A stretch of 49,960 bases of DNA. It comes from an uncultured Oscillospiraceae bacterium (GTDB lineage Bacteria > Bacillota > Clostridia > Oscillospirales > Ruminococcaceae). Position 1 is the first letter of the stretch. Every line of letters begins with the position of its first letter. The stretch lies in assembly GCA_949298535.1 (NCBI GenBank), contig CASFXA010000174.1, positions 1 through 49,960 on the forward strand, written 5' to 3'. A program made the position numbers and the translations under genes. Positions 20,446 through 30,868 of this stretch are shown here, piece by piece. Below the pieces are notes generated by a model. It had not been told where the DNA came from. It was given only the letters and a program-made list of their open reading frames with translations, and searched no databases.

Positions 20446-20886
20446 TTATTTCTTATTCTGCTCCTGGCAGCCGCACCCTCTGTCGAAAGAGGGATTGATG
20501 GCATAAAAGTTTTTGCTGTCCAAATGTTCTCTGGCAATATCCAGCGCTTCGCCAAACCGCTGATAGTGGACGATCTCCCGCTCCCGCAGGAAACGGATGG
20601 GATCCAACACGTCAGGATCATCTACCAGGCGAAGGATATTGTCATAGGTGGTGCGCGCCTTCTGCTCCGCCGCCATATCTTCATGAAGATCCGTCAGCAC
20701 GTCTCCCTTGCAGGCAAAGGCAGAGGCTGTAAAAGGCGTTCCTGAGGCCGCCTGGGTCCAAACCCCCACAGTGTGGTCCACAAAGTAAGGTTCAAATCCG
20801 CAGCGGCGGATCTCCTCCAGGGACAAGTCTCTGGTCAGCTGATGAACGATGGCCCCGATCATTTCCAGGTGGGCCAATTCTTCTGT
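20446..20886 (-). CDS. cotJC: Spore-coat protein CotJC, 3' part (gene split by a 9.2 kb element)
   Basis: The last 146 codons of cotJC, a manganese-catalase-family protein of the spore coat. They begin exactly at the element border: TEELAHLEMIGAIVHQL, then FTASAFACKGDVLTDLHEDMAAEQKARTTY, REREIVHYQRF and a Cys-containing tail DRGCGCQEQNKK. The conserved metal ligands EELAH (ExxH), AAEQKA and EREIVH are all in this part, while the first Glu (DGELGAS) is in the 5' part at 30094-30279, so neither half can form the dimanganese site. No start codon with a ribosome site precedes this part. Removal of 20887-30093 makes one 208-residue frame with normal family sequence through the join. Confidence 0.95.
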   Translation of the reverse strand, partial: TEELAHLEMIGAIVHQLTRDLSLEEIRRCGFEPYFVDHTVGVWTQAASGTPFTASAFACKGDVLTDLHEDMAAEQKARTTYDNILRLVDDPDVLDPIRFLREREIVHYQRFGEALDIAREHLDSKNFYAINPSFDRGCGCQEQNKK

Positions 20887-20897
20887 ACCTAGATCGG
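20886..20897 (-). other. Recombination site at the left border (core GGTA)
   Basis: Minus strand reads CCGATCTA then GGTA then CAGAAG (cotJC codons 63 onward). The GGTA core (20889-20886) is the only contiguous identity with the other border at 30096-30093. CCGATCTA (20897-20890) is the element-side arm. Confidence 0.85.
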
Positions 20898-20906
20898 CAT
20901 CGGTAA

Positions 20907-20933
20907 AGCCCCCCGGGATCTTCCCGGGAGGCT
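20907..20933 (-). terminator. Terminator of the element's catabolic operon, at the element edge
   Basis: Minus strand GCCTCCCGGGA pairs with CCCGGGGGGC, followed by TTTACC. It lies between the aspartate-dehydrogenase-like gene and the border, so cargo transcription stops before entering cotJC. Its 3' arm overlaps the outer part of the recombination arm. Confidence 0.75.
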
Positions 20934-20953
20934 GACCATTCTGAAACGATGAT

Positions 20954-21760
20954 TTAAAACTGAAAGGGAGAGGCCAGATTCTCCAGCAGCGCTACTACGC
21001 TCCAGGCCGCCAACGTGCTGCTTCGGGGATTGGCGGGATCCGGCAACGACGCCGTTTCCAGCGTCACCCGCACCGAGGCGTTTTGGCCGTGGATGCAATG
21101 GGTGTTCTCCTCCAAGCCGGGCACGCTGACGATTTCCACCGTAGTATTCTCCGGACCAATACCGGAAAGGGCAGCCGCTACCGCCACATTGACATTTTTC
21201 GGGAAGCTGCGGATAGCCTCCATAGCGGTGCCGGAAAAGACCAGCTCCTCCTGCTGCTGAGAAAGCTGCCGGCCAGCCAATCCAGGAGCTCCTGCCAGGC
21301 TGTGGGGGGCTTTTCGGTTCTCCACCCGGACCTTCATTCCATCCCCCATCAGGCGCATTGCCCGGAGGACATCCAGACCGCCAATGGCTCCGGAAGGAAG
21401 GTAAATTTTTCTTCCTGTCTCCTCTGCCGCGGCAGCCAGCTGACTGCGGAGCGCCTCCTCTGCCAGCGCCCCCACAGACAGTAAAATCAAATCGCTGCCG
21501 CCGGAAAGCAGCTGACAGCCATACTGCCGCACCGCTTCCCCTCCTGCCGCCTCCACCACATAATCAGGGCGGTCCTCCAGCAGCTGTTGGAAGCTGCCAT
21601 AGGGGCGTCCGCCTGCTTTTTCAGCCAGTTCCATCGGTTCTTCCGGCGTCAGACCCAGCATCCCCACAAGCGTATAATGATCTTTCAGTCGTTCCGCTAC
21701 ACCTTGGGCGATCGTACCGCCCAAAGCGCCGCATCCAATGATCGCAACCGTTTTTTTCAT
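20954..21760 (-). CDS. Aspartate dehydrogenase-like protein (NadX family)
   Basis: A 268-residue NAD(P)-dependent oxidoreductase. The Rossmann motif is IIGCGALGGTIAQGVAE near residue 7. Family motifs follow: VVEAAGGEAVRQYG, LPSGAIGGLDVLRA (catalytic region), FPKNVNVAVAAALSGIG, and NPRSSTLAAWSVVALL at the C terminus. Known members convert L-aspartate to iminoaspartate, either for NAD synthesis or in catabolism. No nadA/nadB/nadC neighbours are present, so a catabolic or amino-acid-interconverting role with the other cargo enzymes is more likely (inference). AAGGAG lies 8 bases before ATG 21760. It is the last cargo gene. Confidence 0.88.
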   Translation of the reverse strand: MKKTVAIIGCGALGGTIAQGVAERLKDHYTLVGMLGLTPEEPMELAEKAGGRPYGSFQQLLEDRPDYVVEAAGGEAVRQYGCQLLSGGSDLILLSVGALAEEALRSQLAAAAEETGRKIYLPSGAIGGLDVLRAMRLMGDGMKVRVENRKAPHSLAGAPGLAGRQLSQQQEELVFSGTAMEAIRSFPKNVNVAVAAALSGIGPENTTVEIVSVPGLEENTHCIHGQNASVRVTLETASLPDPANPRSSTLAAWSVVALLENLASPFQF

Positions 21761-21782
21761 CAGGGTTCTCCTTCTGTCCTTT

Positions 21783-22424
21783 TTATTTTTTGTCCCGCAC
21801 CTCGTCGATGTAGCTGTAAACTGTCACCCGGGAAATACCCATCCGGCTGCCCACCTGATCCACAGCACCTTTCATCAGGAAGATGCCCCGCTGATCCATA
21901 AACCGGATCAGCTCCAGCTTCTCCTCCCGGCGCAGCCTGGACACATCCTTGTCCCCGATAATCTTATCAATCAGGTCGGTGACCACCTCGCTGACATGAG
22001 TCACCTCCTCGGGGACTTCCTCCGTCGTCGAGGCGTTCTCTTCTGCCCCAGGCATCAGGCTCTGGAGCCATTCAATCTGTCCGCTGATTTTGCTGGTATC
22101 AATATTGATGCACAGCGCCCCCACCACCTTGCCGTCAAAATCCTTGAGCAAAGCGGTGGAAGATTTGATAAGCCTGCCTTCTGCCGTCCGGAAATAATAG
22201 TTGGTGACAATATCATGGTCCAGCTTTTCCGAAAGGATCACCTGAGGCACCAGATGGTCAAAACTTTGTCCCACCTGCCGCCCGGTCACCCGGTTGTTGA
22301 CAGTATAAACCACAGACTGCTGAGGGTTCTCCAGATCATGCAGCACCACTTCGCAGTCGTCTCCAATGGTTTGGGCGATCATATGAGCTATGGGGATATA
22401 CTGGGCCAAAATGGGCTTAATCAT
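21783..22424 (-). CDS. YheO/DauR-like transcriptional regulator
   Basis: A 213-residue regulator: an N-terminal YheO-type PAS-like ligand domain (YIPIAHMIAQTIGDDCEVVLHDL, VTGRQVG, LIKSSTALLKDFDGKVVGALCINID) and a C-terminal helix-turn-helix (FLMKGAVDQVGSRMGISRVTVYSYIDEVR). The DauR relative controls D-amino-acid catabolism in Pseudomonas, which fits the D-amino-acid-type enzyme upstream. ATG 22424 is used because the promoter at 22504-22532 lies inside the longer frame; its ribosome site is weak (AGGA). It is the likely local controller of the cargo operon. Confidence 0.85.
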   Translation of the reverse strand: MIKPILAQYIPIAHMIAQTIGDDCEVVLHDLENPQQSVVYTVNNRVTGRQVGQSFDHLVPQVILSEKLDHDIVTNYYFRTAEGRLIKSSTALLKDFDGKVVGALCINIDTSKISGQIEWLQSLMPGAEENASTTEEVPEEVTHVSEVVTDLIDKIIGDKDVSRLRREEKLELIRFMDQRGIFLMKGAVDQVGSRMGISRVTVYSYIDEVRDKK

Positions 22425-22503
22425 TGATCCTAAGCGCCGTCCCAGAGAACACGGCGCCTTCCTCCTCTCTTTCTTGTCCGGGCAATATGGCAGTATGGTT
22501 GTT

Positions 22504-22532
22504 ATCATAACACGTTTCAAAACATGGTGCAA
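22504..22532 (-). promoter_or_regulatory. Internal promoter for the YheO-like regulator
   Basis: Minus strand TTGCAC (22532-22527), 17-base spacer, TATGAT (22509-22504) with a TG extension. It allows regulator and dehydrogenase expression independent of the upstream genes. Confidence 0.6.
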
Positions 22533-22595
22533 TCATCTGTTTTCCATTTATAGGGTCGCAGGGCGCAGAAAGCTCCCTCAAAAAAGGGCGCAAAG

Positions 22596-22644
22596 GGCAG
22601 CGGAAAGCACCCACCCTTCATGGGCGAGCTTTCTTTCCGCTGCC
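22596..22644 (-). terminator. Terminator after the M20 amidohydrolase gene
   Basis: Minus strand GGCAGCGGAAAG (22644-22633) pairs with CTTTCCGCTGCC (22607-22596), with TTTTTT about ten bases further on (22585-22580). The distant U-run makes it weaker than usual, so partial read-through is possible. Confidence 0.55.
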
Positions 22645-22652
22645 GGAAATGT

Positions 22653-23981
22653 TCAGTCTTTGTACTGGAGGGTCTGCTCCAGGGAGAACAGCAGTTGGAT
22701 ATACTCCTCCTTGGTCATCTGGGCCTTAAAGTTTTCCTTGACCCGGGCGGCTCCGGAGGCTCCGTCCGCCAGCAGATCGATGACGGTGCAGGCCAGCATC
22801 TTCACCGGTGTGATAAAGGCGTCCTCCAAGTCGATAATCCGGTAATCCTTGGAGTGAAGCCCTCCCTCCACACCGGAGGTGATGCAGTGCAGCACCGGCA
22901 TGAACAGGGAAAGGTCTCCCATATCAAAGGAGGCGGTACTTTCCATGCAGGGCAGAATCTTTTCCTGGGGATAGAAACGCAGGGCGTTTTCCCTGAAGAT
23001 TTCCGCCATGGTTTCATCCGCAGCCAGGGGCATCTGTCCAGGACTGTCCTCCACTGTAGCGCTGCCGCCCATAGCGATGGCCGCGCCGCGGATGCAGCGG
23101 TTCACCTTGTCGTTGGCGTCTTTAAGGGCAACCAGGTTCCGGGCCCGAACGGTGGTTTCCAGTTCCACGTCATCCGGAACAGCGTTGACAATGTCGCCGC
23201 CCCGGTTGATGATCTGATGGATCCGTACACAATCCTTATCCTTGAAGGTTTCCCGCTGTGCGTGCATACTGTTGATGGCGATGGTGGCCATATTCAGGGC
23301 GTTGACGCCATCCCAGGGAGCCGCCCCGGCGTGGGACTGCTTGCCCAGGAAATGAGTCTTTTTGCCGATAAAGCCGTTGCCGGTGTTCATGGGGGCACAT
23401 TTGTAGCCGTCCGCTTCGATGGGGAAATTATGGGCCATCATGCACATATCCACATCGTCATACGCGCCTCTGTAGGCAAGCTCCGGTTTTCCGGCATAGA
23501 ACCGGATCTTCCCTTCATCCCGCAGACTCTTGCGATAATCCAACTCAATATATTCCTCTGCCGGCACCGCCATAAAATCCACGCTGCCGTCCAGCTGTTC
23601 CATCACGCCGGAATGGATGAGGGCCGCTGCCACACCGTACATCACCGACACCTGGATGTTGTGACCGCAGGCGTGCATCGCGCCGGTGCTCGGGTCGCAA
23701 TCAGGATGGTTGTGGCAAACCACCGAATCCAGCTCTCCCATCACCGCGATCTTGGGTCCCTGTTTGCCCTTGTTGCCATAACCGCGGCAGCCGGTGTAGG
23801 CGATATTCCGATCCACCGGCAGCCCCAGGTCTTCCAACGCCTTGGCCAGGGTCTCGGTGGTGCGAAACTCACGGTAGCCCGTCTCGGGATGCTGATAAAT
23901 TTCCTTACCCAGAGCCAGGATGGCGTCCCGGTCCTTATCCACTTGACGGATCACCAGCTGCTTCATTTGTTCCTTATCCAT
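22653..23981 (-). CDS. M20-family amidohydrolase (AbgB-like)
   Basis: A 442-residue metal-dependent amidohydrolase or peptidase. N-terminal IYQHPETGYREFRT, MGELDSVVCHNHPDCDP, the metal-binding MHACGHNIQ, VPAEEYIELDY, the dimer-interface region HFLGKQSHAGAAPWDGVNALN, and C-terminal STASFDMGDLS with TSGVEGGLHSKDY are visible. The family cleaves N-acyl amino acids, aminobenzoyl-glutamate and similar amides in the cytoplasm. A role in releasing an amino acid from an imported N-acyl conjugate fits the transporter next door, but the substrate is unknown. Its start follows a purine-rich GGAGGCAG site. Confidence 0.9.
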   Translation of the reverse strand: MDKEQMKQLVIRQVDKDRDAILALGKEIYQHPETGYREFRTTETLAKALEDLGLPVDRNIAYTGCRGYGNKGKQGPKIAVMGELDSVVCHNHPDCDPSTGAMHACGHNIQVSVMYGVAAALIHSGVMEQLDGSVDFMAVPAEEYIELDYRKSLRDEGKIRFYAGKPELAYRGAYDDVDMCMMAHNFPIEADGYKCAPMNTGNGFIGKKTHFLGKQSHAGAAPWDGVNALNMATIAINSMHAQRETFKDKDCVRIHQIINRGGDIVNAVPDDVELETTVRARNLVALKDANDKVNRCIRGAAIAMGGSATVEDSPGQMPLAADETMAEIFRENALRFYPQEKILPCMESTASFDMGDLSLFMPVLHCITSGVEGGLHSKDYRIIDLEDAFITPVKMLACTVIDLLADGASGAARVKENFKAQMTKEEYIQLLFSLEQTLQYKD

Positions 23982-24021
23982 AGGACACTGCCTCCTTTTT
24001 TCTTTTAAGGGCCTGGAAGGA

Positions 24022-24486
24022 TCAGATAATCCCCTGGAGCTTCAGGATTCCCTGAGCGATGAGAGCGGAGCCGAAGAAGGTGCCGCAGAACACCACAATA
24101 GCCACCAGGATCATCTTCCAGCTCAGACGCTTGATGTCATCCAGTTTGGTACCGATGGAGATACCAGCCACCGCCAGAATAACCGTACCAACCTGGCCGG
24201 AGGAGATCTGGGCAGTCAGATCCAGCAGCGTATCCGCCACCGGAGACCAGGGAGTGGTCAGCAGCAGCGCCAGCAGCGAAGCCCAGGCAAAGGCCGGAAT
24301 TTTCCAGGGGATTAGTTCCTTGATTTTCAGCGCCAACATACAAATAACGATGATGCAAAGCATACCGATGCAGGCCTTGCCCACTTCCAAAACCGTGCCG
24401 CCTCTCATCAGATTGACCCATTGGGTCACCAGCACAACGGCGCCGCACAGTACCAAAGCCTTGAATTGATTGAGAGTCTTTGTCAT
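24022..24486 (-). CDS. Small integral membrane protein, probable transporter subunit
   Basis: A 154-residue hydrophobic protein with about four or five membrane helices (FKALVLCGAVVLVTQW, ACIGMLCIIVICMLAL, FAWASLLALLLTTPW, VGTVILAVAGISIGTKL, MILVAIVVFCGTFFG). I do not recognise a named family. It sits 35 bases behind the DUF3100 membrane protein and 40 bases ahead of the amidohydrolase, all on one strand. The pairing suggests a two-part permease importing the amidohydrolase substrate (inference). Confidence 0.72.
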   Translation of the reverse strand: MTKTLNQFKALVLCGAVVLVTQWVNLMRGGTVLEVGKACIGMLCIIVICMLALKIKELIPWKIPAFAWASLLALLLTTPWSPVADTLLDLTAQISSGQVGTVILAVAGISIGTKLDDIKRLSWKMILVAIVVFCGTFFGSALIAQGILKLQGII

Positions 24487-24521
24487 AGCGATATTCCTCC
24501 TCTTTATATGACCCAGCGGCC

Positions 24522-25400
24522 TCAGGCCTTGGCCTTGTCTCTGCCCATAGCCTTGGACAACTTTTTATAGATAAAGTTGGCCGCCGGCAAGGCGATAAAC
24601 AGCTCCATATACAAGCCGTCCACGTTGGTGCAGATATTGGAGGTTGCGGCAAAGGCCAGCACCTCGTCCGCCATCTCCGGAACGGTAGCCGCCAGCGCCT
24701 GGGAAGCGGCGGTCATCATGGAACCGGAGCCCATGCCGCAGGCCATGCCCAGGGCATAGGGATGAATCCCGGTGAGAACGCCGAAGGAACCCAGCAGGCC
24801 GAAGAAGATGGTTCCAAAGAGGTTACCTACCATATAGGTGCCCATAACGCCGATGCCCTCGGGGGAATCGATGCCATAGATCTCGGAGACGAGGCCCAGG
24901 GTAGGCTCACGGCAGATAGACAGGGTCGCGCCCACCGCTTCCCGGCGCATCCCCAGCAGCATTGCCACAGGCAGTCCGATGACCATGGTGCCCAGGTTGC
25001 CGAACTCCTGGAGAATCAGAGCGGGGCCGGCTTCCACTACCTTGAGAATGTTGGGGCCGGCAGACATTCCCAGCTTGACGCCCAGAATCAGCAGCACCAG
25101 CATCATGATGTCTTCCGAGAGCTTGACTTCCTTTTCGCTGCAAATCTTCTTGAGGGCCTCGATCTTTCTGCCCAGGGCGTCAGGGGTGACCAGCACTGCG
25201 AGGATCATGGCGAAGATCATGGGCAGTACGATCAGATTGCCCGGGCCCACGGGAATGGTGATGGTTCCGATAACCTCACCGATTGCCGCTGCGATGCCGC
25301 AAACCACAAAGAGCTTGATGAACACGGGCCAGCGGCCTTTGGTGGACAGATTGTCCTCCTGGGGATTGGCGGGTTGGTTTTTCTCCACTTGGTTTGACAT
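24522..25400 (-). CDS. DUF3100-family membrane protein, putative permease
   Basis: A 292-residue membrane protein with eight or so hydrophobic segments after a polar N-terminal tail. Gly-rich helix motifs include ILGVKLGMSAGPN, GMRREAVGATLSICREPTLG and ALGMACGMGSGSMMTAASQAL. DUF3100 proteins are recurrently found with M20 amidohydrolases, and I infer a transport function; no direct evidence identifies the substrate. It is followed by the smaller membrane protein, with which it probably forms one transporter. Confidence 0.82.
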   Translation of the reverse strand: MSNQVEKNQPANPQEDNLSTKGRWPVFIKLFVVCGIAAAIGEVIGTITIPVGPGNLIVLPMIFAMILAVLVTPDALGRKIEALKKICSEKEVKLSEDIMMLVLLILGVKLGMSAGPNILKVVEAGPALILQEFGNLGTMVIGLPVAMLLGMRREAVGATLSICREPTLGLVSEIYGIDSPEGIGVMGTYMVGNLFGTIFFGLLGSFGVLTGIHPYALGMACGMGSGSMMTAASQALAATVPEMADEVLAFAATSNICTNVDGLYMELFIALPAANFIYKKLSKAMGRDKAKA

Positions 25401-25449
25401 GAATACTCTCCTCCTGTCAAAATATCAATCTATGACACACACCAACGGT

Positions 25450-26283
25450 TCAGCGGTTTTCCGTCAATGTGTAGACATCTTTGCGGCGATGAGCCAGCAG
25501 CGGCAGCTCCCGGCGCACCTGTTCCACCCGGTCCAGTTCCAGGGTGGACAGCAGAATTCCTTCCTCTGCTCCCAGCCGTCCCAGCACATCTCCCCAGGGA
25601 GATACAATAATGGAATTGCCATAGGAGGTATAGCCGGAAGAGGCGTCCCGGGCCGGCGCCGCCCCCCGGGCAAAAACCTGGTTATCCAGCGCCCTGGCGC
25701 GGAACAAGATCTCCCAATGGGCCGGTCCGGTGGTCATATTGAAAGCGGCAGGCACCAAAATCACCCTGGCTCCCCGGTCCACCATCAGGCGGCTCAGCTC
25801 GGGGAAACGGAAATCATAGCAGATACACAGCCCCATCACCCCCCACTCCGTCTCGAAGGTGGTCACGCTGTCTCCGGCAGTAAGGGTATCCGATTCCCGG
25901 AAGGATTGTCCTCCTGTCACGTCGATGTCAAACAGGTGCATCTTCCGGTGCCTGGCGATCTGCCGACCCTGCCGGTCAAAGACATAAGCGGTGTTGTAGA
26001 TCTTTCCCGCCTCATCCCGCTCCGGTACCGAGCCGGCAGCCAGAATGAGGTTGTACTGCCTGGCCATCCGGGACAGCTCCTGCCATACCGCCTCTCCTTC
26101 CGCCTGGGCGTAAACAGGAAAGTTTTTCGTTTGGTAGGGGCAGCAAAACATCTCCGGCAGCAAAACCAAATCCGTTCCCTGGGACGCGGCCTCTCTGAGA
26201 AAGGATTCCGCTCTGGACAGGCTGTCGCTGGTCTGAGTTTGTACCTGCATCTGAACCAGGGCAACTTTTAATGTCGCAGACAT
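25450..26283 (-). CDS. Nitrilase-superfamily amidase, omega-amidase (Nit2)-like
   Basis: A 277-residue C-N hydrolase. The catalytic triad is complete: Glu44 in LLPEMF, Lys113 in HRKMHLFDID and Cys154 in LCICYDFRF. The sequence around KMHLFDIDVTGGQSFRESDTLT is the signature of the Nit2/omega-amidase branch, which hydrolyses alpha-ketoglutaramate and alpha-ketosuccinamate to 2-oxo acids. That would give oxaloacetate or 2-oxoglutarate from asparagine- or glutamine-derived keto-amides, compatible with the aspartate dehydrogenase-like enzyme in the same operon. It begins 12 bases after the upstream PLP-enzyme stop. Confidence 0.88.
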   Translation of the reverse strand: MSATLKVALVQMQVQTQTSDSLSRAESFLREAASQGTDLVLLPEMFCCPYQTKNFPVYAQAEGEAVWQELSRMARQYNLILAAGSVPERDEAGKIYNTAYVFDRQGRQIARHRKMHLFDIDVTGGQSFRESDTLTAGDSVTTFETEWGVMGLCICYDFRFPELSRLMVDRGARVILVPAAFNMTTGPAHWEILFRARALDNQVFARGAAPARDASSGYTSYGNSIIVSPWGDVLGRLGAEEGILLSTLELDRVEQVRRELPLLAHRRKDVYTLTENR

Positions 26284-26295
26284 AGCCCGTCCTCC

Positions 26296-27405
26296 TTATT
26301 GCAGGCGCCCGCGGCAAAGAATGGGGATCTCCTCCACCACCTCGCCGTTGGAGACCAGCATCGCCTTTTCATACAGATTGCAGACCGGACAGATATGGAC
26401 GGGATAAAACTCCACTTTATCCCCCACCCGGACCTCATCCCGGAAGGCTTTATGATAGATAATGGCGTGCTCGTCATAGACATCAAAGATGTGGACATCC
26501 TCGTGTCCCTTCACCGTTCCCAGGCCGGGAGTGGCGCAGATCCCCTTTTGGCGGGTCTGGGCGGTGAGGCCCTTGGCTCCCACATCGGTGATTACCCGCT
26601 GGGCGGTGGGACGGCTGATGACAGTGGTCAGCACGGTGGCGGCGCAGCGGTCCAAAGTTCCAATGGCGTGGCCCTGGCTGGCATCCATCAGCACATAGGT
26701 GCCGGGACGAATTTCGGTGACGCCGGGAAGGATGTCAAAGCCGTTCATCAGCGACGGGGTGGAACCGATGCTCACCACCTGGGGAGCCATTCCCAAGTCC
26801 CGGGCCAGGCGGGCGAAGGAAAGGGTCCGCTCCTGGCTGGTGATAAATTTTTCATGGCAATCCTCAATGCTGTCGGCATTGTAGCAATGGCCCTCGTGGG
26901 AGAAAATCCCCACAAACTCTACATGGGGGCACCGGCGGATGGTCTCCATTAAGGCGACAAAATCTCCCTCATGGATGATGCCGGAGCGTTCCTCCCCCAC
27001 CTCGATCTCAATAAGAACCCGGGCGGGGATCTCCTCCCCTCCGAACACCTCATTGGCCGCTTCCACCTGGCAGGGAGTATCCACCGCGAAGCTGATGGTC
27101 ACTCCCGCGCGGCTCAGGGCGCGAATTCGCTCCAGTTTCTGTTTGCCTACAATCTCATTGGCGATAAAAATATCCTTCAGGCCGTTTTCCGCCATCACCT
27201 CAGCCTCGCCCACCTTGGCCACAGTGATGCCCTTCGCTCCCAGCTGTTCCTGGAGTTTGGCGATTGCCGGCATTTTATGGGTCTTGGTATGGGGGCGCAG
27301 CGCCACCCCCTGCCGGTCCGCATAATCCTGCATAAAATGCAGGTTGTTCATCATCCGCTCCCGGTCAATCAACAGCGCCGGGGTGTCCAATTCCTTGTAA
27401 TTCAT
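26296..27405 (-). CDS. D-threonine aldolase / D-serine dehydratase-like PLP enzyme
   Basis: A 369-residue fold-type III PLP enzyme. The PLP lysine motif RPHTKTHK is at residues 37-44 and the phosphate-binding VVSIGSTPS near 210. The C-terminal metal site HICPVCN (His337, Cys339) is the hallmark of the D-serine dehydratase/D-threonine aldolase group. Activities in this group include D-threonine aldolase, 3-hydroxy-D-aspartate aldolase and D-serine dehydratase; the sequence alone does not choose among them. Enamine or imine products would justify the RidA gene beside it. It starts 12 bases after ridA. Confidence 0.9.
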   Translation of the reverse strand: MNYKELDTPALLIDRERMMNNLHFMQDYADRQGVALRPHTKTHKMPAIAKLQEQLGAKGITVAKVGEAEVMAENGLKDIFIANEIVGKQKLERIRALSRAGVTISFAVDTPCQVEAANEVFGGEEIPARVLIEIEVGEERSGIIHEGDFVALMETIRRCPHVEFVGIFSHEGHCYNADSIEDCHEKFITSQERTLSFARLARDLGMAPQVVSIGSTPSLMNGFDILPGVTEIRPGTYVLMDASQGHAIGTLDRCAATVLTTVISRPTAQRVITDVGAKGLTAQTRQKGICATPGLGTVKGHEDVHIFDVYDEHAIIYHKAFRDEVRVGDKVEFYPVHICPVCNLYEKAMLVSNGEVVEEIPILCRGRLQ

Positions 27406-27417
27406 GGGAAAACCTCC

Positions 27418-27795
27418 TTACTGCTTCAGCTGAGCCACAGCCTCTACTTCCACCAGGCACCCGCCATAAAGATGATTGGTGGGCACTACAATCCGGGCTG
27501 GCTTATGATCGCCAAAGAAGCGGGCGTACTCCTCGTTGAGATCAGGCCAATAGGCTACGTCCGGCAGATAAACCCGGCACATCACCACATCCTCCCGGGC
27601 CGCTCCTGCTGCGGACAGGACGGTGTCCAAATTTTGCAGGGCCTGAGCCGCCTGAGCCCGGATGCCCTCCGGCGCCTTCCCCGTCTCCGGATTGATGGAA
27701 AGCTGTCCGGAAACATAAAGCGTACCATTATAAATCATACCCGGACTGTAATGTCCCCCATCCCGCACGGAATACCGGGTTTCGATCTTTTCCAT
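27418..27795 (-). CDS. RidA-family enamine/imine deaminase
   Basis: A 125-residue trimeric cytosolic protein that hydrolyses reactive enamines or imines formed by PLP enzymes. YVSGQLSINPETG and KPARIVVP with substrate-binding Arg101 are present; VEVEAVAQL ends the fold. AAAGGAG lies 13 bases before the ATG, longer than usual. As first gene of the cargo operon, it likely protects against or drives forward the dehydratase/aldolase step encoded next. Confidence 0.9.
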   Translation of the reverse strand: MEKIETRYSVRDGGHYSPGMIYNGTLYVSGQLSINPETGKAPEGIRAQAAQALQNLDTVLSAAGAAREDVVMCRVYLPDVAYWPDLNEEYARFFGDHKPARIVVPTNHLYGGCLVEVEAVAQLKQ

Positions 27796-27846
27796 TTGAG
27801 GTTGACAACTCCTTTTGGATAACTTTCCTTCCAGATAAAACCGGAA

Positions 27847-27938
27847 GATTTAACCTCATAATATAGAAAAAAATATATAAAGTCAATACATTTTTCTATA
27901 TTCATATAATTTTATCTTTATGAACAGGATTTAACCTC
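27847..27938. repeat. Direct repeat GATTTAACCTC flanking the cargo promoter
   Basis: Identical 11-mers at 27847-27857 and 27928-27938, in direct orientation 81 bp (about eight helical turns) apart. One overlaps the -10/+1 region and the other lies about 45 bp upstream of the -35. This arrangement fits a repressor or looping operator pair. Confidence 0.6.
27858..27886 (-). promoter_or_regulatory. Promoter of the cargo catabolic operon
   Basis: Minus strand TTGACT (27886-27881), 17-base spacer, TATTAT (27863-27858): five of six matches in both hexamers, in a strongly AT-rich stretch. It drives the ridA-first operon during vegetative growth. Confidence 0.85.
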
Positions 27939-28076
27939 TTTATTTGTGCAAGATTTGAGCAAAATCCTTTTTGCTTCGAAAGGTTTTTTCATTCTTTTTT
28001 CGTGTTTCGCCTGCAAGACGTATAAAAAAGTCTATTACCCTTTCTTTTTGCTGTTCCGAAAGTCCTTTCGCTTTTC

Positions 28077-28105
28077 TCATACCGCCACAGCTCTTTTCAT
28101 ATAAA
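28077..28105 (+). promoter_or_regulatory. Sigma-E-like promoter ahead of the recombinase genes
   Basis: TCATACC (28077-28083), 14-base spacer, CATATAAA (28098-28105). Against the Bacillus sigma-E pattern KMATATT-N14-CATACAMT this matches 5 of 7 and 6 of 8 positions at the correct spacing. For sigma-A, TATAAA has no usable -35. The leader that follows (to 28307) is GC-rich with hairpins, for example GGCAGG-N7-CCTGCC near 28214-28232. The stretch 27939-28076 shows nothing else I recognise. Confidence 0.5.
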
Positions 28106-28307
28106 AATAAAAATCAGTATTCCCCGGGAAACAAGGGGTGAAGCGGCTCGCAAGAGAACACAGAGGAGCAAAGGCCGGACAGCGAAGGCGGAGCGACGTT
28201 TGCCGGCGGCCAAGGCAGGAACAGCGCCTGCCTTCTTCCGCTCCTGGGATTCCCTTCTTGTATCCTTCTGAGGGGGGCTTTTCATCTTTCAAGGGAGGCG
28301 GACAACC

Positions 28308-28505
28308 GTGACGCACCGTTCCATTTCTTTTCCTCTCAAGCCAGAACAGCAAAAGGCTTTTTCCCGACAGCTTCAGCTGGCGCTGCTGGAATCCTTTGCA
28401 CAGGAAGGAAAATTAACGCTGGCGCAATATGACCGCTGTTGCCAAATTCTGGGGCTCTCCCTTCGGGGCGACCCCGCAAGCGGCTCTCAAAGGAGGGAGG
28501 TGTAG
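28308..28505 (+). CDS. Small protein translated ahead of the serine recombinase (SHOCT-like)
   Basis: A 65-residue basic, helical protein starting at GTG 28308, with AAGGGAGGCGG 6 bases upstream. Its centre, LLESFAQEGKLTLAQYDRCCQIL, resembles the short SHOCT-type helix pair found in small proteins that often precede serine recombinases on clostridial elements. It ends 4 bases before the recombinase ATG, so they are co-expressed. It is a candidate accessory or recombination-directionality factor (inference only). Confidence 0.7.
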   Translation: MTHRSISFPLKPEQQKAFSRQLQLALLESFAQEGKLTLAQYDRCCQILGLSLRGDPASGSQRREV

Positions 28506-28509
28506 AAAA

Positions 28510-30069
28510 ATGCTTCAGGTGGCGGCATATTGCAGAGTTTCCACCGATCAGGAGGACCAACTTCATTCCCTGGAGAGTCAACGTTCCTATTTTGAGGCTT
28601 ACATCCACCGCAATCCCCAATGGCAGCTGGCCGGAATTTATGCCGACGAAGGGATCTCCGGTACCAGTGTCCGGAAAAGGCTGGCCTTCCAGCAGATGAT
28701 CTCCGATGCCCGGCAAGGCCGTTTTCAATTGCTGCTGACCAAGGAAATCAGCCGCTTTGCCCGCAATACCCTGGACAGCATCTATTACACCCGTCAACTG
28801 AAGCAATGGGGGGTCGGGGTCCTTTTTCTCCAGGACAACATCAACACCCTGGACCCGGACGCCGAATTGCGGCTGACCATCCTGGCCTCCATCGCCCAGG
28901 AGGAAAGCCGCAAAACCTCTGACCGGGTGAAATGGGGACAAAAACGGAGAATGGAACAGGGGGTGGTTTTTGGCCGCAGTATGCTGGGTTACGATGTCCG
29001 CGAGGGACAGCTGCTGCTCAATGAAAAAGGGGCCCAAACCGTCCGGTTGATCTTCCATCTGTTTGTTGTGGAGGGGATGGGAACCCACGCCATCGCCCGC
29101 CAGTTGCAGCAGCAAGGGATTCCCACCTGCCGGGGGCTGCCTCAATGGTCCAACACCGCCGTTCTCCGGACGCTGCGGAATGAAAAATATTGCGGAGACT
29201 TGGTGCAGAAAAAGACCTTCACCCCCGATTACCTCACCCACCAGAAAAAAAGGAATCAGGGACAGGAAGAACTGGTGATTCTGCGGAATCATCATCCGCC
29301 TATCGTCCCCCGAGAGCTGTGGGAACAGGCTCAGGAAGAACTGGCCCGGCGGGAAGCCCTCGCCCGCAGGAAAAAAAGCCGTCATTCCGGACGCTGCGGC
29401 CTGTCAGGGAAAATATTCTGCGGATTTTGCGGCGCTCCTTTTATCTGCCGCAGCTGTCCCCGGAAAAGCGGCGAACTCTATCGGGCTTGGCGCTGCCGGG
29501 AAGCCGCCCGCCATGGCCGGCTCCGTTTCAATCAGGAAGGCCCGCCTTCCGGCTGCCTCTGCCGCCAGGTGAATCACCTTTTCTTATTAAAAATAATTGC
29601 CAAAACTGCATCGATCCTGGCTACAAATCGGGCTGCCATCACCCAGCAGCTGCTTCAGGTTTTGAGGCAGGTGCTGGAGGATCGCCGTCAGGAGCTGCCT
29701 CTGCCCGATGATAATTGGTCAAGGCTGAAACAACGGCAGCTTCGTCTGGTGGAGGCTTATTTGGACGGAGAAGTGTGTCGGGAGGACTATCTTCTCCTTT
29801 CCAAACAGTATGACCGGCAGCTGGCTTGTCCGAATTCTCCAAAGCCGGAAAATGTCTCCCCCTCCGGTCTTTTGGAAACCCTCTCCCAGGAGATTCATGC
29901 CGCTCTTTGGGAGGGAAAAGGCTCGGAAATCTTTTGCGGAGCGCTGCTGGATCATATCGTTATTTATGAAAAGGAGAGAATGGACCTTTATTTTAGGGGA
30001 TTGGATTTTCCCCTTCATCTGACCGCCTCTCTGCTGATGGAGGAGCTTGTTCCGGAGACGGCAGACTGA
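28510..30069 (+). CDS. Large serine recombinase (site-specific, SpoIVCA-like role)
   Basis: A 519-residue enzyme that cuts and joins DNA through a serine-phosphate intermediate. The resolvase-type catalytic domain begins MLQVAAYCRVSTDQEDQ with catalytic Ser11, followed by GISGTSVRKRLAFQQM, LLTKEISRFARNTLD and TILASIAQEESR. The recombinase domain (GYDVREGQLLLNEKGAQTVRLIF, LRNEKYCGDL) precedes a zinc-ribbon region with paired Cys (IFCGFCGAPFICRSC, and CRE with CLC). ATG 28510 is 9 bases from AAAGGAGGGAGG; the upstream in-frame ATG at 28429 lies inside the previous gene. It ends 25 bp from the right border of the element, as integrase genes usually do. It is the presumed excisase/integrase of the cotJC element. 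Confidence 0.95.
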   Translation: MLQVAAYCRVSTDQEDQLHSLESQRSYFEAYIHRNPQWQLAGIYADEGISGTSVRKRLAFQQMISDARQGRFQLLLTKEISRFARNTLDSIYYTRQLKQWGVGVLFLQDNINTLDPDAELRLTILASIAQEESRKTSDRVKWGQKRRMEQGVVFGRSMLGYDVREGQLLLNEKGAQTVRLIFHLFVVEGMGTHAIARQLQQQGIPTCRGLPQWSNTAVLRTLRNEKYCGDLVQKKTFTPDYLTHQKKRNQGQEELVILRNHHPPIVPRELWEQAQEELARREALARRKKSRHSGRCGLSGKIFCGFCGAPFICRSCPRKSGELYRAWRCREAARHGRLRFNQEGPPSGCLCRQVNHLFLLKIIAKTASILATNRAAITQQLLQVLRQVLEDRRQELPLPDDNWSRLKQRQLRLVEAYLDGEVCREDYLLLSKQYDRQLACPNSPKPENVSPSGLLETLSQEIHAALWEGKGSEIFCGALLDHIVIYEKERMDLYFRGLDFPLHLTASLLMEELVPETAD

Positions 30070-30086
30070 ACAGGGCTCCGACGAAA

Positions 30087-30096
30087 CCGATCTACC
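30087..30096 (-). other. Recombination site at the right border (core GGTA)
   Basis: Minus strand reads GACATC (cotJC codons 60-61), GGTA (30096-30093), GATCGG. TAGATCGG (30094-30087) is the element-side arm and is the exact reverse complement of the left border's CCGATCTA. Confidence 0.85.
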
Positions 30097-30279
30097 GATG
30101 TCGGTTAAAAGCCCCGCCAGCTGGGGACAGGGCATGGTGTAGCGCTGTGACAAATACCGCAGGGAAGCGCCCAGCTCTCCGTCCGGTCCGCCATATTGAC
30201 TGAGAATAATCTGAGCCGCCTTGGCATTGGGGCGGGTGATCTTCACCGGATATTGCAATCTTTTTTCATAACCCCACAT
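30094..30279 (-). CDS. cotJC: Spore-coat protein CotJC, 5' part (gene split by a 9.2 kb element)
   Basis: The first 62 codons of cotJC: MWGYEKRLQYPVKI, ILSQYGGPDGELGASLRYLSQRYTMP and AGLLTDIG, all matching the conserved CotJC start. At codon 62 (GGT) the frame enters the element and continues as unrelated sequence to a stop at 29719, so unexcised DNA would give a truncated 186-residue chimera. AAAGGAG precedes ATG 30279, which lies 3 bases beyond the cotJB stop. The missing 146 codons are at 20446-20886. Confidence 0.95.
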
Positions 30280-30282
30280 GGC

Positions 30283-30546
30283 TCAGCATCTCCTTTCCCA
30301 AGGCCAGGGGCCTTCCCCCCAGGCCCAGCTGCCGGAAACCACGCCGCTGCCGCCGGATGTAAGGGGACCGAATTGTTCTGTGTATGCCGCGATGGCCTGG
30401 GCCGCCAGGGTCTGATACCGCTGCATCTCTGCCAGCGCCTTGGGGTCGCAGGGATGGGTATCCAGATACAGCCTGGTTTCATCTGCGGCAAAACAGGCCT
30501 GCTGGACCCGCAGCATCATGCACTCCCGCTCATTTCTTCCATTCAT
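30283..30546 (-). CDS. cotJB: Spore-coat protein CotJB
   Basis: An 87-residue spore-coat component. LRVQQACFAADETRLYLDTHPCDPKALAEM is the family signature, followed by a helix and a Gly/Trp-rich tail (GSWAWGEGPWPW). ATG 30546 overlaps the cotJA stop (ATGA) with GGGAGG 8 bases upstream. CotJ proteins are made in the mother cell and assemble into the inner coat; the cotJA-cotJB-cotJC order is conserved here apart from the insertion. Confidence 0.93.
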   Translation of the reverse strand: MNGRNERECMMLRVQQACFAADETRLYLDTHPCDPKALAEMQRYQTLAAQAIAAYTEQFGPLTSGGSGVVSGSWAWGEGPWPWERRC

Positions 30547-30770
30547 GTGCAGCGCCTCCCGCAAAATGGTTTATTCAGCTCTGGGAACAGGGTGCCTTCC
30601 GCCAGCGCCTGCTCCAGAGAATAAACGGTATTCCACCGCTGCCGGGGGACATATGCCATCGCCAGGGGCAGCTCCACCGCAGCGGGACGTTCTGTCTGCT
30701 GCACCGGTGCAGGACGCTCCTGACGCCGCGCTCCGGAATACATAGAGCTGGGGGACATTTGATTTCTCAT
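30543..30770 (-). CDS. cotJA: Spore-coat associated protein CotJA
   Basis: A 75-residue protein with the diagnostic LAMAYVPRQRWNTVYSLEQALAEGTLFPELNKPF. ATG 30770 follows AGGTGG by 6 bases. It is the first gene of the cotJABC operon. I see no strong sigma-A promoter upstream; CATAGG-type -10 options exist but no good sigma-E -35, so its mother-cell promoter remains unassigned. Confidence 0.94.
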   Translation of the reverse strand: MRNQMSPSSMYSGARRQERPAPVQQTERPAAVELPLAMAYVPRQRWNTVYSLEQALAEGTLFPELNKPFCGRRCT

Positions 30771-30868
30771 CAAGTTCCACCTCTCCTTTCTTGTTCTCGC
30801 CTATGGATTTCACAGGCTCAATGCCATGCTATGCGTCCGCCCCTGCCCCTGTTCCTTCTCAATCCTTC

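Follow-up and report, generated by a model that had tools for sequence, protein, structure and literature searches.

How can a spore coat gene that is cut in two by kilobases of intervening DNA keep both of its halves in working order? The question is raised by a stretch of 49,960 nucleotides from an uncultured Oscillospiraceae bacterium (order Oscillospirales; assembly GCA_949298535.1, contig CASFXA010000174.1), hereafter called the window, in which cotJC, the third gene of a cotJABC operon, is interrupted after codon 62 by an element of 9,207 bp (one copy of the core counted in). Our analysis points to a skin-like gene-intervening element, and we consider it highly probable that excision by the recombinase of the element leaves an intact cotJC, most likely in the sporulating mother cell. 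In many related genomes cotJC is likewise broken, at one to four fixed points, which suggests that the gene is reassembled when spores form.

Both parts of cotJC lie on the same strand and are free of stops. The 5′ part comprises 62 codons and ends with the residues LLTDIG; the 3′ part begins with TEELAHLEM and runs for 146 codons and a stop codon. Each part alone matches the Pfam family Mn_catalase, the 5′ part at profile positions 1-63 (E 6.5e-17) and the 3′ part at positions 64-197 (E 5e-25), and since these positions abut, the break appears to be seamless. Joined, the parts give 627 nt open in frame, and the joined sequence is identical wherever within the core GGTA the crossover falls. 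The first-pass annotation of this DNA had placed the coordinates, orientation, core and reading frame correctly to the base; its 627 bases without frame error stand as well, but its 209 codons include the stop, and the protein has 208 amino acids. Directly upstream of the 5′ part are cotJB and cotJA. Glu35, Glu65, His68, Glu136 and His169 of the joined protein align with solved homologues, the manganese ligands of the Lactobacillus enzyme being Glu35, Glu66, His69, Glu148 and His181; family match and ligand residues together place the joined protein in the CotJC/dimanganese catalase family. As is typical of skin-like elements, the feature interrupts a sporulation gene whose two parts are intact and in frame. 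An intact cotJC was not found by Mn_catalase search of the own assembly (86% complete, 180 contigs), where the matches were the two halves and one weak, distant place. SigK-like and SigE/SigG-like genes are present in this genome; an interrupted sigK was considered and rejected, the SigK-like match being one unbroken frame.

Put together, the two ends of the element read CCGATCTA-GG-TAGATCGG, so that a GG dinucleotide lies between the arms of a perfect 8-bp inverted repeat, and an inverted repeat around an asymmetric dinucleotide is what would be expected of the attachment site (attP) of a serine recombinase. About 25 nt from the 5′ core, and pointing at it, lies the end of a large serine recombinase gene. 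Its product is assigned to this class by Resolvase, Recombinase and zinc ribbon domains and by the catalytic serine, Ser38 in an RVST motif that is invariant over 15 aligned relatives; the true start is probably nearer to position 28513. The element possesses a site-specific recombinase and attachment (att) sites with a direct core and inverted arms, a further trait of skin-like elements.

An orthologous element occupies the same cotJC break in a congener, G002, with the cargo genes in the same order (78-94% amino-acid identity for the cargo, 62% for the recombinase). Synonymous divergence (dS) between the two is 0.45-1.15 in ten flanking host genes, 0.78-1.92 in eight cargo genes, 0.68 in the 5′ half of cotJC and 2.8, which is near saturation, in the 3′ half. 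Because dS is alike and the cargo order is the same, the insertion most simply predates the split of the two species. The ratio of nonsynonymous to synonymous divergence (dN/dS) is 0.021 for the 5′ half and 0.008 for the 3′ half, at or below that of the ten flanking genes (0.026-0.122), which represent 10 of 31 open reading frame (ORF) pairs, the remaining pairs having been dropped as duplicates, as frames that overlap or run antisense to others, or as the end of the recombinase; one frame of the G002 regulator, as delimited here, contained a stop. With both halves at about 0.02 or less, selection appears therefore to have acted while cotJC was interrupted, in line with the earlier claim that the join is under selection, and we regard this long-term purifying selection as the best evidence for a presumed restoration of the gene. 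Aligning cotJC from relatives, a check proposed in the first-pass annotation, gave uninterrupted alleles in congeners besides the shared site in G002: one full-length match each was obtained in the fetched DNA of G001, G003, G004, G007 and G009, the cotJC of G008 is without its first codons (near site S1, see below), and the search gave no match in G005 and G006. G004, whose cotJC is intact, carries the cargo operon of the window in the same gene order, followed by a GNAT-like ORF, on a contig without recombinase (G004:C323, L257), so that cargo and element are separable.

A full-length cotJC query was run over 395 genomes of the order, each at least 90% complete and drawn evenly, and gave matches in at least 341. 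From these 341 we re-searched 120 genomes chosen for several or weak matches, leaving out the other 221, and counted as a paired break two pieces that meet within 24 codons of a site, since short alignments overrun. At least one paired break at one of four fixed points was found in 108 of the 120 genomes: 43 genomes are broken at S1, 52 at S2 (the site used in the window), 31 at S3 and 15 at S4. Two or more sites are broken in 27 genomes, three or four in five and all four in one. The latter, G272, has five cotJC pieces on one strand over about 83 kb, and its S2 element may be two elements, as it contains two recombinases. The earlier reading of an element in cotJC holds, but the use of four sites, and across many genomes, had escaped it. 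Of 141 paired breaks, 79 lie on one contig, with 74 of them collinear and on the same strand, and 62 span different contigs and could include assembly breaks; median distances between paired pieces are 9-27 kb. It had been argued that accumulating stops and frameshifts in the halves of relatives would speak against restoration. All 44 resolved joins are open in frame (counted after removal of a spurious 3-nt 'join' inside G434), and 35 assembled frames are free of stops before codon 195 except that of G273, which stops at codon 180 and is broken at S4.

Crossover is predicted to occur at GG in S1 (nt 91-92, codon 31), GG in S2 (nt 184-185, codon 62), GA in S3 (nt 406-407, codon 136) and GA in S4 (nt 523-524, codon 175), the dinucleotide being present at both ends in 8/8, 19/21, 9/9 and 6/6 elements, respectively. 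Break codons 31, 62, 136 and 175 lie beside the ligand residues at positions 35, 65/68, 136 and 169 by alignment, and the elements thus use the most conserved stretches of cotJC. Inverted-repeat arms flank the GG or GA at all four sites, with mean matches of 14.8 (S1), 11.9 (S2), 13.6 (S3) and 10.7 (S4) out of 20, compared with 10.6, 9.0, 10.3 and 7.6 when arms were swapped between elements. A tree was built from 38 recombinases near att ends, short ones and those lying over 800 bp away being excluded; in it the recombinases of S1 (8), S3 (9) and S4 (2) each form one fully supported clade and those of S2 fall into two (17 and 2). Site labels need three changes on this tree, the minimum possible, against 17.1 when shuffled; long branches make the deeper joins unsure.

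A scan of named genomes by alignment to the S2 recombinase, and thus blind to cotJC, used the best 80 of 562 relatives. The fetched DNA held a cotJC piece broken at codons 59-67 for 75 of these 80 and no cotJC piece for the other five; the break was less than 1 kb from the recombinase in 69, with a median distance of 72 bp over the 75. Among the named carriers are Intestinibacillus massiliensis (three breaks), Flavonifractor sp. An10, Ruminiclostridium papyrosolvens, Caldicoprobacter algeriensis, Roseburia sp. 1XD42-69 and two complete Anaerocolumna genomes. In Anaerocolumna (genomes of L188 and L200) one complete chromosome carries two copies of cotJC, an intact and an interrupted one.

Some loci depart from the usual arrangement. 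Scrambled cotJC, with pieces out of order or on opposite strands, was seen in G188:C1 (L284, L285), G247:C3 (L286, L287), G466:C1 (L288-L290), G359:C50 (L291-L293) and G407:C1 (L117). The pieces of G247 are 108 kb apart in opposite orientation and those of the single-contig G188 are 675 kb apart, and cotJA and cotJB still precede the 5′ piece in the scrambled loci. Some of these genes could be rejoined by site-specific inversion or by chromosome splitting, misassembly being another possible source. Two contigs of G295 (C26:1-195 and C30:1-408; L273, L274) stop exactly at the S2 point, with element sequence on neither. An assembler might produce such ends from a mixed population, but there is no k-mer overlap and the ends prove nothing.

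Upstream of the window's recombinase lies a 65-aa ORF, our candidate for a directionality factor. We built a profile from 39 non-redundant small ORFs that precede related recombinases, with the window and G002 left out, and among 1,273 ORFs of the window and G002 it ranked the window's 65-aa ORF first (E 2.2e-6) and the small ORF of G002 second (E 0.003). At E<0.01 such an ORF precedes 10 of 20 S2 recombinases versus none of 20 at other sites among the G-series elements; some of these elements may come from genomes that also supplied training loci, as is the case for Flavonifractor An10. A sigma-E-like motif was set beforehand from the consensus and looked for in the last 60 bp upstream of the small ORF that accompanies S2 recombinases. 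After thinning of 61 upstream regions to 48 with less than 80% identity, it was present in 18 of the 48, compared with 8 of 784 control ORFs of the same loci and a Markov expectation of 0.6. The aligned sites read about GTTATATGGTACAA-N9-CTCATACATT (22 sites, found with a second pattern taken from these sequences), and their inner GTACAA/GGACAA recalls SpoIIID boxes, for which the consensus KRTAACARK is given for C. difficile (PMC5025042). The sigma-E sites in the promoter region of G002 (shuffles as good: 0.17) and before cotJA were not significant.

The features suggest the following course. The large serine recombinase, probably directed by the 65-aa protein encoded just upstream, would join attL to attR by crossover at GG in codon 62 and would thereby free a 9.2-kb circle and leave cotJC intact. 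What we infer here is that excision takes place, that it is confined to sporulation and that the small protein has this role; the most likely place is the mother cell, and because the mother cell dies, the spore would keep the element and its metabolic cargo. An operon of metabolic genes with a regulator makes up this cargo, two membrane-type proteins included (Table 1). Among the ten element proteins, searches of Pfam and PHROGs recognised no phage structural or replication genes, and a defective prophage was rejected on these grounds; the recombinase is the only integrase-type match, and the PHROGs that the nitrilase matches are of unknown or other function. Cargo differs elsewhere: in a 3.1-kb S2 element (G278:C1 1228813-1232516, L091) a pyrimidine nucleoside phosphorylase gene is all that accompanies the recombinase and a small ORF, and small S1 elements (L108, L109) bear cell-wall amidase-type genes.

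Table 1. Features of the interrupted cotJC locus, in window coordinates.
Feature	Position	Strand	Remarks
cotJA	30543..30773	-	
cotJB	30283..30564	-	
cotJC 5′ part, codons 1-62	30094..30279	-	Mn_catalase match
attL core GGTA (putative)	30093..30096	-	gene nt 184-187, predicted crossover GG at nt 184-185
Body of intervening element	20890..30092	.	
Large serine recombinase	28429..30069	+	PF00239, PF07508, PF13408; PHROG integrase E 1e-117
65-aa ORF upstream of recombinase, candidate directionality factor	28308..28505	+	small-ORF family before recombinases of S2
RidA-like (Ribonuc_L-PSP), cargo	27418..27795	-	
D-threonine/hydroxyaspartate aldolase-like, cargo	26296..27405	-	Ala_racemase_N + D-ser_dehydrat
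Carbon-nitrogen hydrolase, cargo	25450..26283	-	
DUF3100 protein, cargo	24522..25400	-	putative membrane protein
154-aa protein, cargo	24022..24486	-	no Pfam or PHROG match
M20 amidohydrolase, cargo	22653..23981	-	
YheO-like PAS/HTH regulator, cargo	21783..22532	-	
Aspartate dehydrogenase family, cargo	20954..21760	-	
attR core GGTA (putative)	20886..20889	-	
cotJC 3′ part, codons 63-208 + stop	20446..20886	-	Mn_catalase match

Several observations weigh against restoration during sporulation. In 23-base pattern searches the circle joint was absent from the own genome (one mismatch allowed) and from IMG/VR (exact), and the restored joint was absent from the own genome (one mismatch allowed). 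The window's own promoter region has no significant sigma-E site (shuffles as good: 0.30), and sigma-K sites are not enriched in the 48 upstream regions (strict pattern 0, loose pattern 3 versus 1.0 expected). Collinearity fails in five of the 79 same-contig breaks. Whole-genome search of 18 named carriers of an interrupted cotJC gave an additional, intact full-length copy in five, and therefore restoration need not be vital everywhere; CotJC homologues are described as dispensable for spore yield in C. difficile (PMC9542656). On a CotJC profile, intact copies (mean 3.19, n=51) outscore interrupted ones (mean 2.83, n=31; Mann-Whitney p 2e-9), a comparison that is biased against the latter because the intact set trained the profile and was picked as best hits, and that we did not rely on as a test of decay.

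The element might instead be lysogeny-like and excise at low frequency at any time, cotJC being an att site that is rescued by chance and no developmental control being involved. The absence of a significant sporulation promoter from the window would fit this, as would yin of C. botulinum, which was found excised at all time points (PMC10747680), and the viral catalogue: all 43 IMG/VR contigs encoding a cotJC 3′ part (L208-L250) begin exactly at a break (21 at S1, 20 at S2, 2 at S3) and none has codon 1, which suggests that the sites also serve phages or phage-like elements; five virome records carry such 3′ parts. However, the target is always a sporulation gene, the sites were kept over at least one species split and sigma-E-like promoters precede related recombinases, which makes the explanation unlikely. 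We consider it quite improbable that the insertion is dead or recent in an unneeded gene, with halves intact for want of time to decay; the intact second copies and the lower, if biased, profile scores could be read in this way, but the element appears to be older than the split from G002, the dN/dS values of both halves are low, and a single gene can be split into as many as five pieces with every one of them open. Purifying selection on both halves would also be expected if they were two proteins assembling without DNA joining. The first in-frame ATG, GTG or TTG of the 3′ part is, however, a TTG at codon 66, so that this half is unlikely to be made on its own and, if it were, would lose the ligand Glu65, and where a genome has three to five pieces, every internal one would have to be translated alone; we find this explanation hardly credible. 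A skin-like element whose removal restores cotJC, as the first-pass annotation had proposed, is well supported by the in-frame join, the recombinase, the symmetry of the predicted att sites and the purifying selection on the halves in two species, to which we add the recurrence at fixed sites.

Among the closest known elements is gin in gerE of Bacillus cereus ATCC10987, which likewise has a serine recombinase, a sporulation gene as target, a short direct-repeat core and no phage genes (PMC5595907). Since gin is without phage genes, prophage content is not required of skin-like elements, and on every sequence feature tested except prophage content the cotJC element belongs, in all likelihood, to this kind. 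Excision in sporulation was shown for gin, whereas the cotJC element is known from sequence; gin further differs in gene, host class, size (28.6 kb), its three recombinases and its single site, in contrast to the metabolic operon of the window's element and the four sites in many genomes. In Clostridioides difficile, skinCd in sigK has a large serine recombinase and a 72-aa recombination directionality factor, CD1234, under sigma-E and SpoIIID, and excision depends on this factor (PMC5025042). Its layout closely parallels the small ORF of the cotJC element and the sigma-E-like promoter of its relatives; unlike the latter, skinCd is described as prophage-like, in sigK and with a constitutive recombinase. 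The recombinase-bearing yin in yabG of C. botulinum, with circle and restored joint shown, also interrupts a sporulation gene, but is prophage-like and described from one strain and one gene (PMC10747680). The same mode of action is proposed for SPbeta in spsM, skin in sigK and vfbin in spoVFB of Bacilli, which concern other genes and are of prophage origin (via PMC5595907, PMC10747680). The prophage phi027 of C. difficile R20291 has its att site next to cotG, a CotJC homologue, and is described as adjacent to it, not as splitting or restoring the gene (PMC11222575, PMC12122855).

Interrupted sporulation genes named in the literature consulted are sigK, spsM, spoVFB, gerE and yabG (PMC5595907 and PMC10747680 among the sources). 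The first-pass annotation knew of no such element in cotJC, and our search of open-licence full-text literature likewise found no description of one; subscription papers and preprints could hold more. As far as we have searched, the kind is thus known, and novelty lies in the gene targeted, in the metabolic cargo and, most of all, in the repeated interruption of one gene at several sites.

Sporulation-timed gene reassembly has so far been known element by element, from few genes and mostly from Bacilli and pathogenic Clostridia. Here one coat gene appears as a repeated target across gut and environmental Clostridia, at four points, for several recombinase lineages and with up to four insertions. 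We think that cotJC is probably a gene in DNA-level pieces, whose four fixed points beside manganese-ligand codons were invaded by independent recombinase-bearing elements, so that some species with up to five pieces over 80 kb would need several precise sporulation-timed excisions, and in a few cases inversions or large-scale rearrangements, for one coat enzyme. The locus provides a set of large serine recombinases for which crossover dinucleotides are predicted and, with cultured carriers at hand, allows comparative study of the ways in which mobile elements become linked to development.

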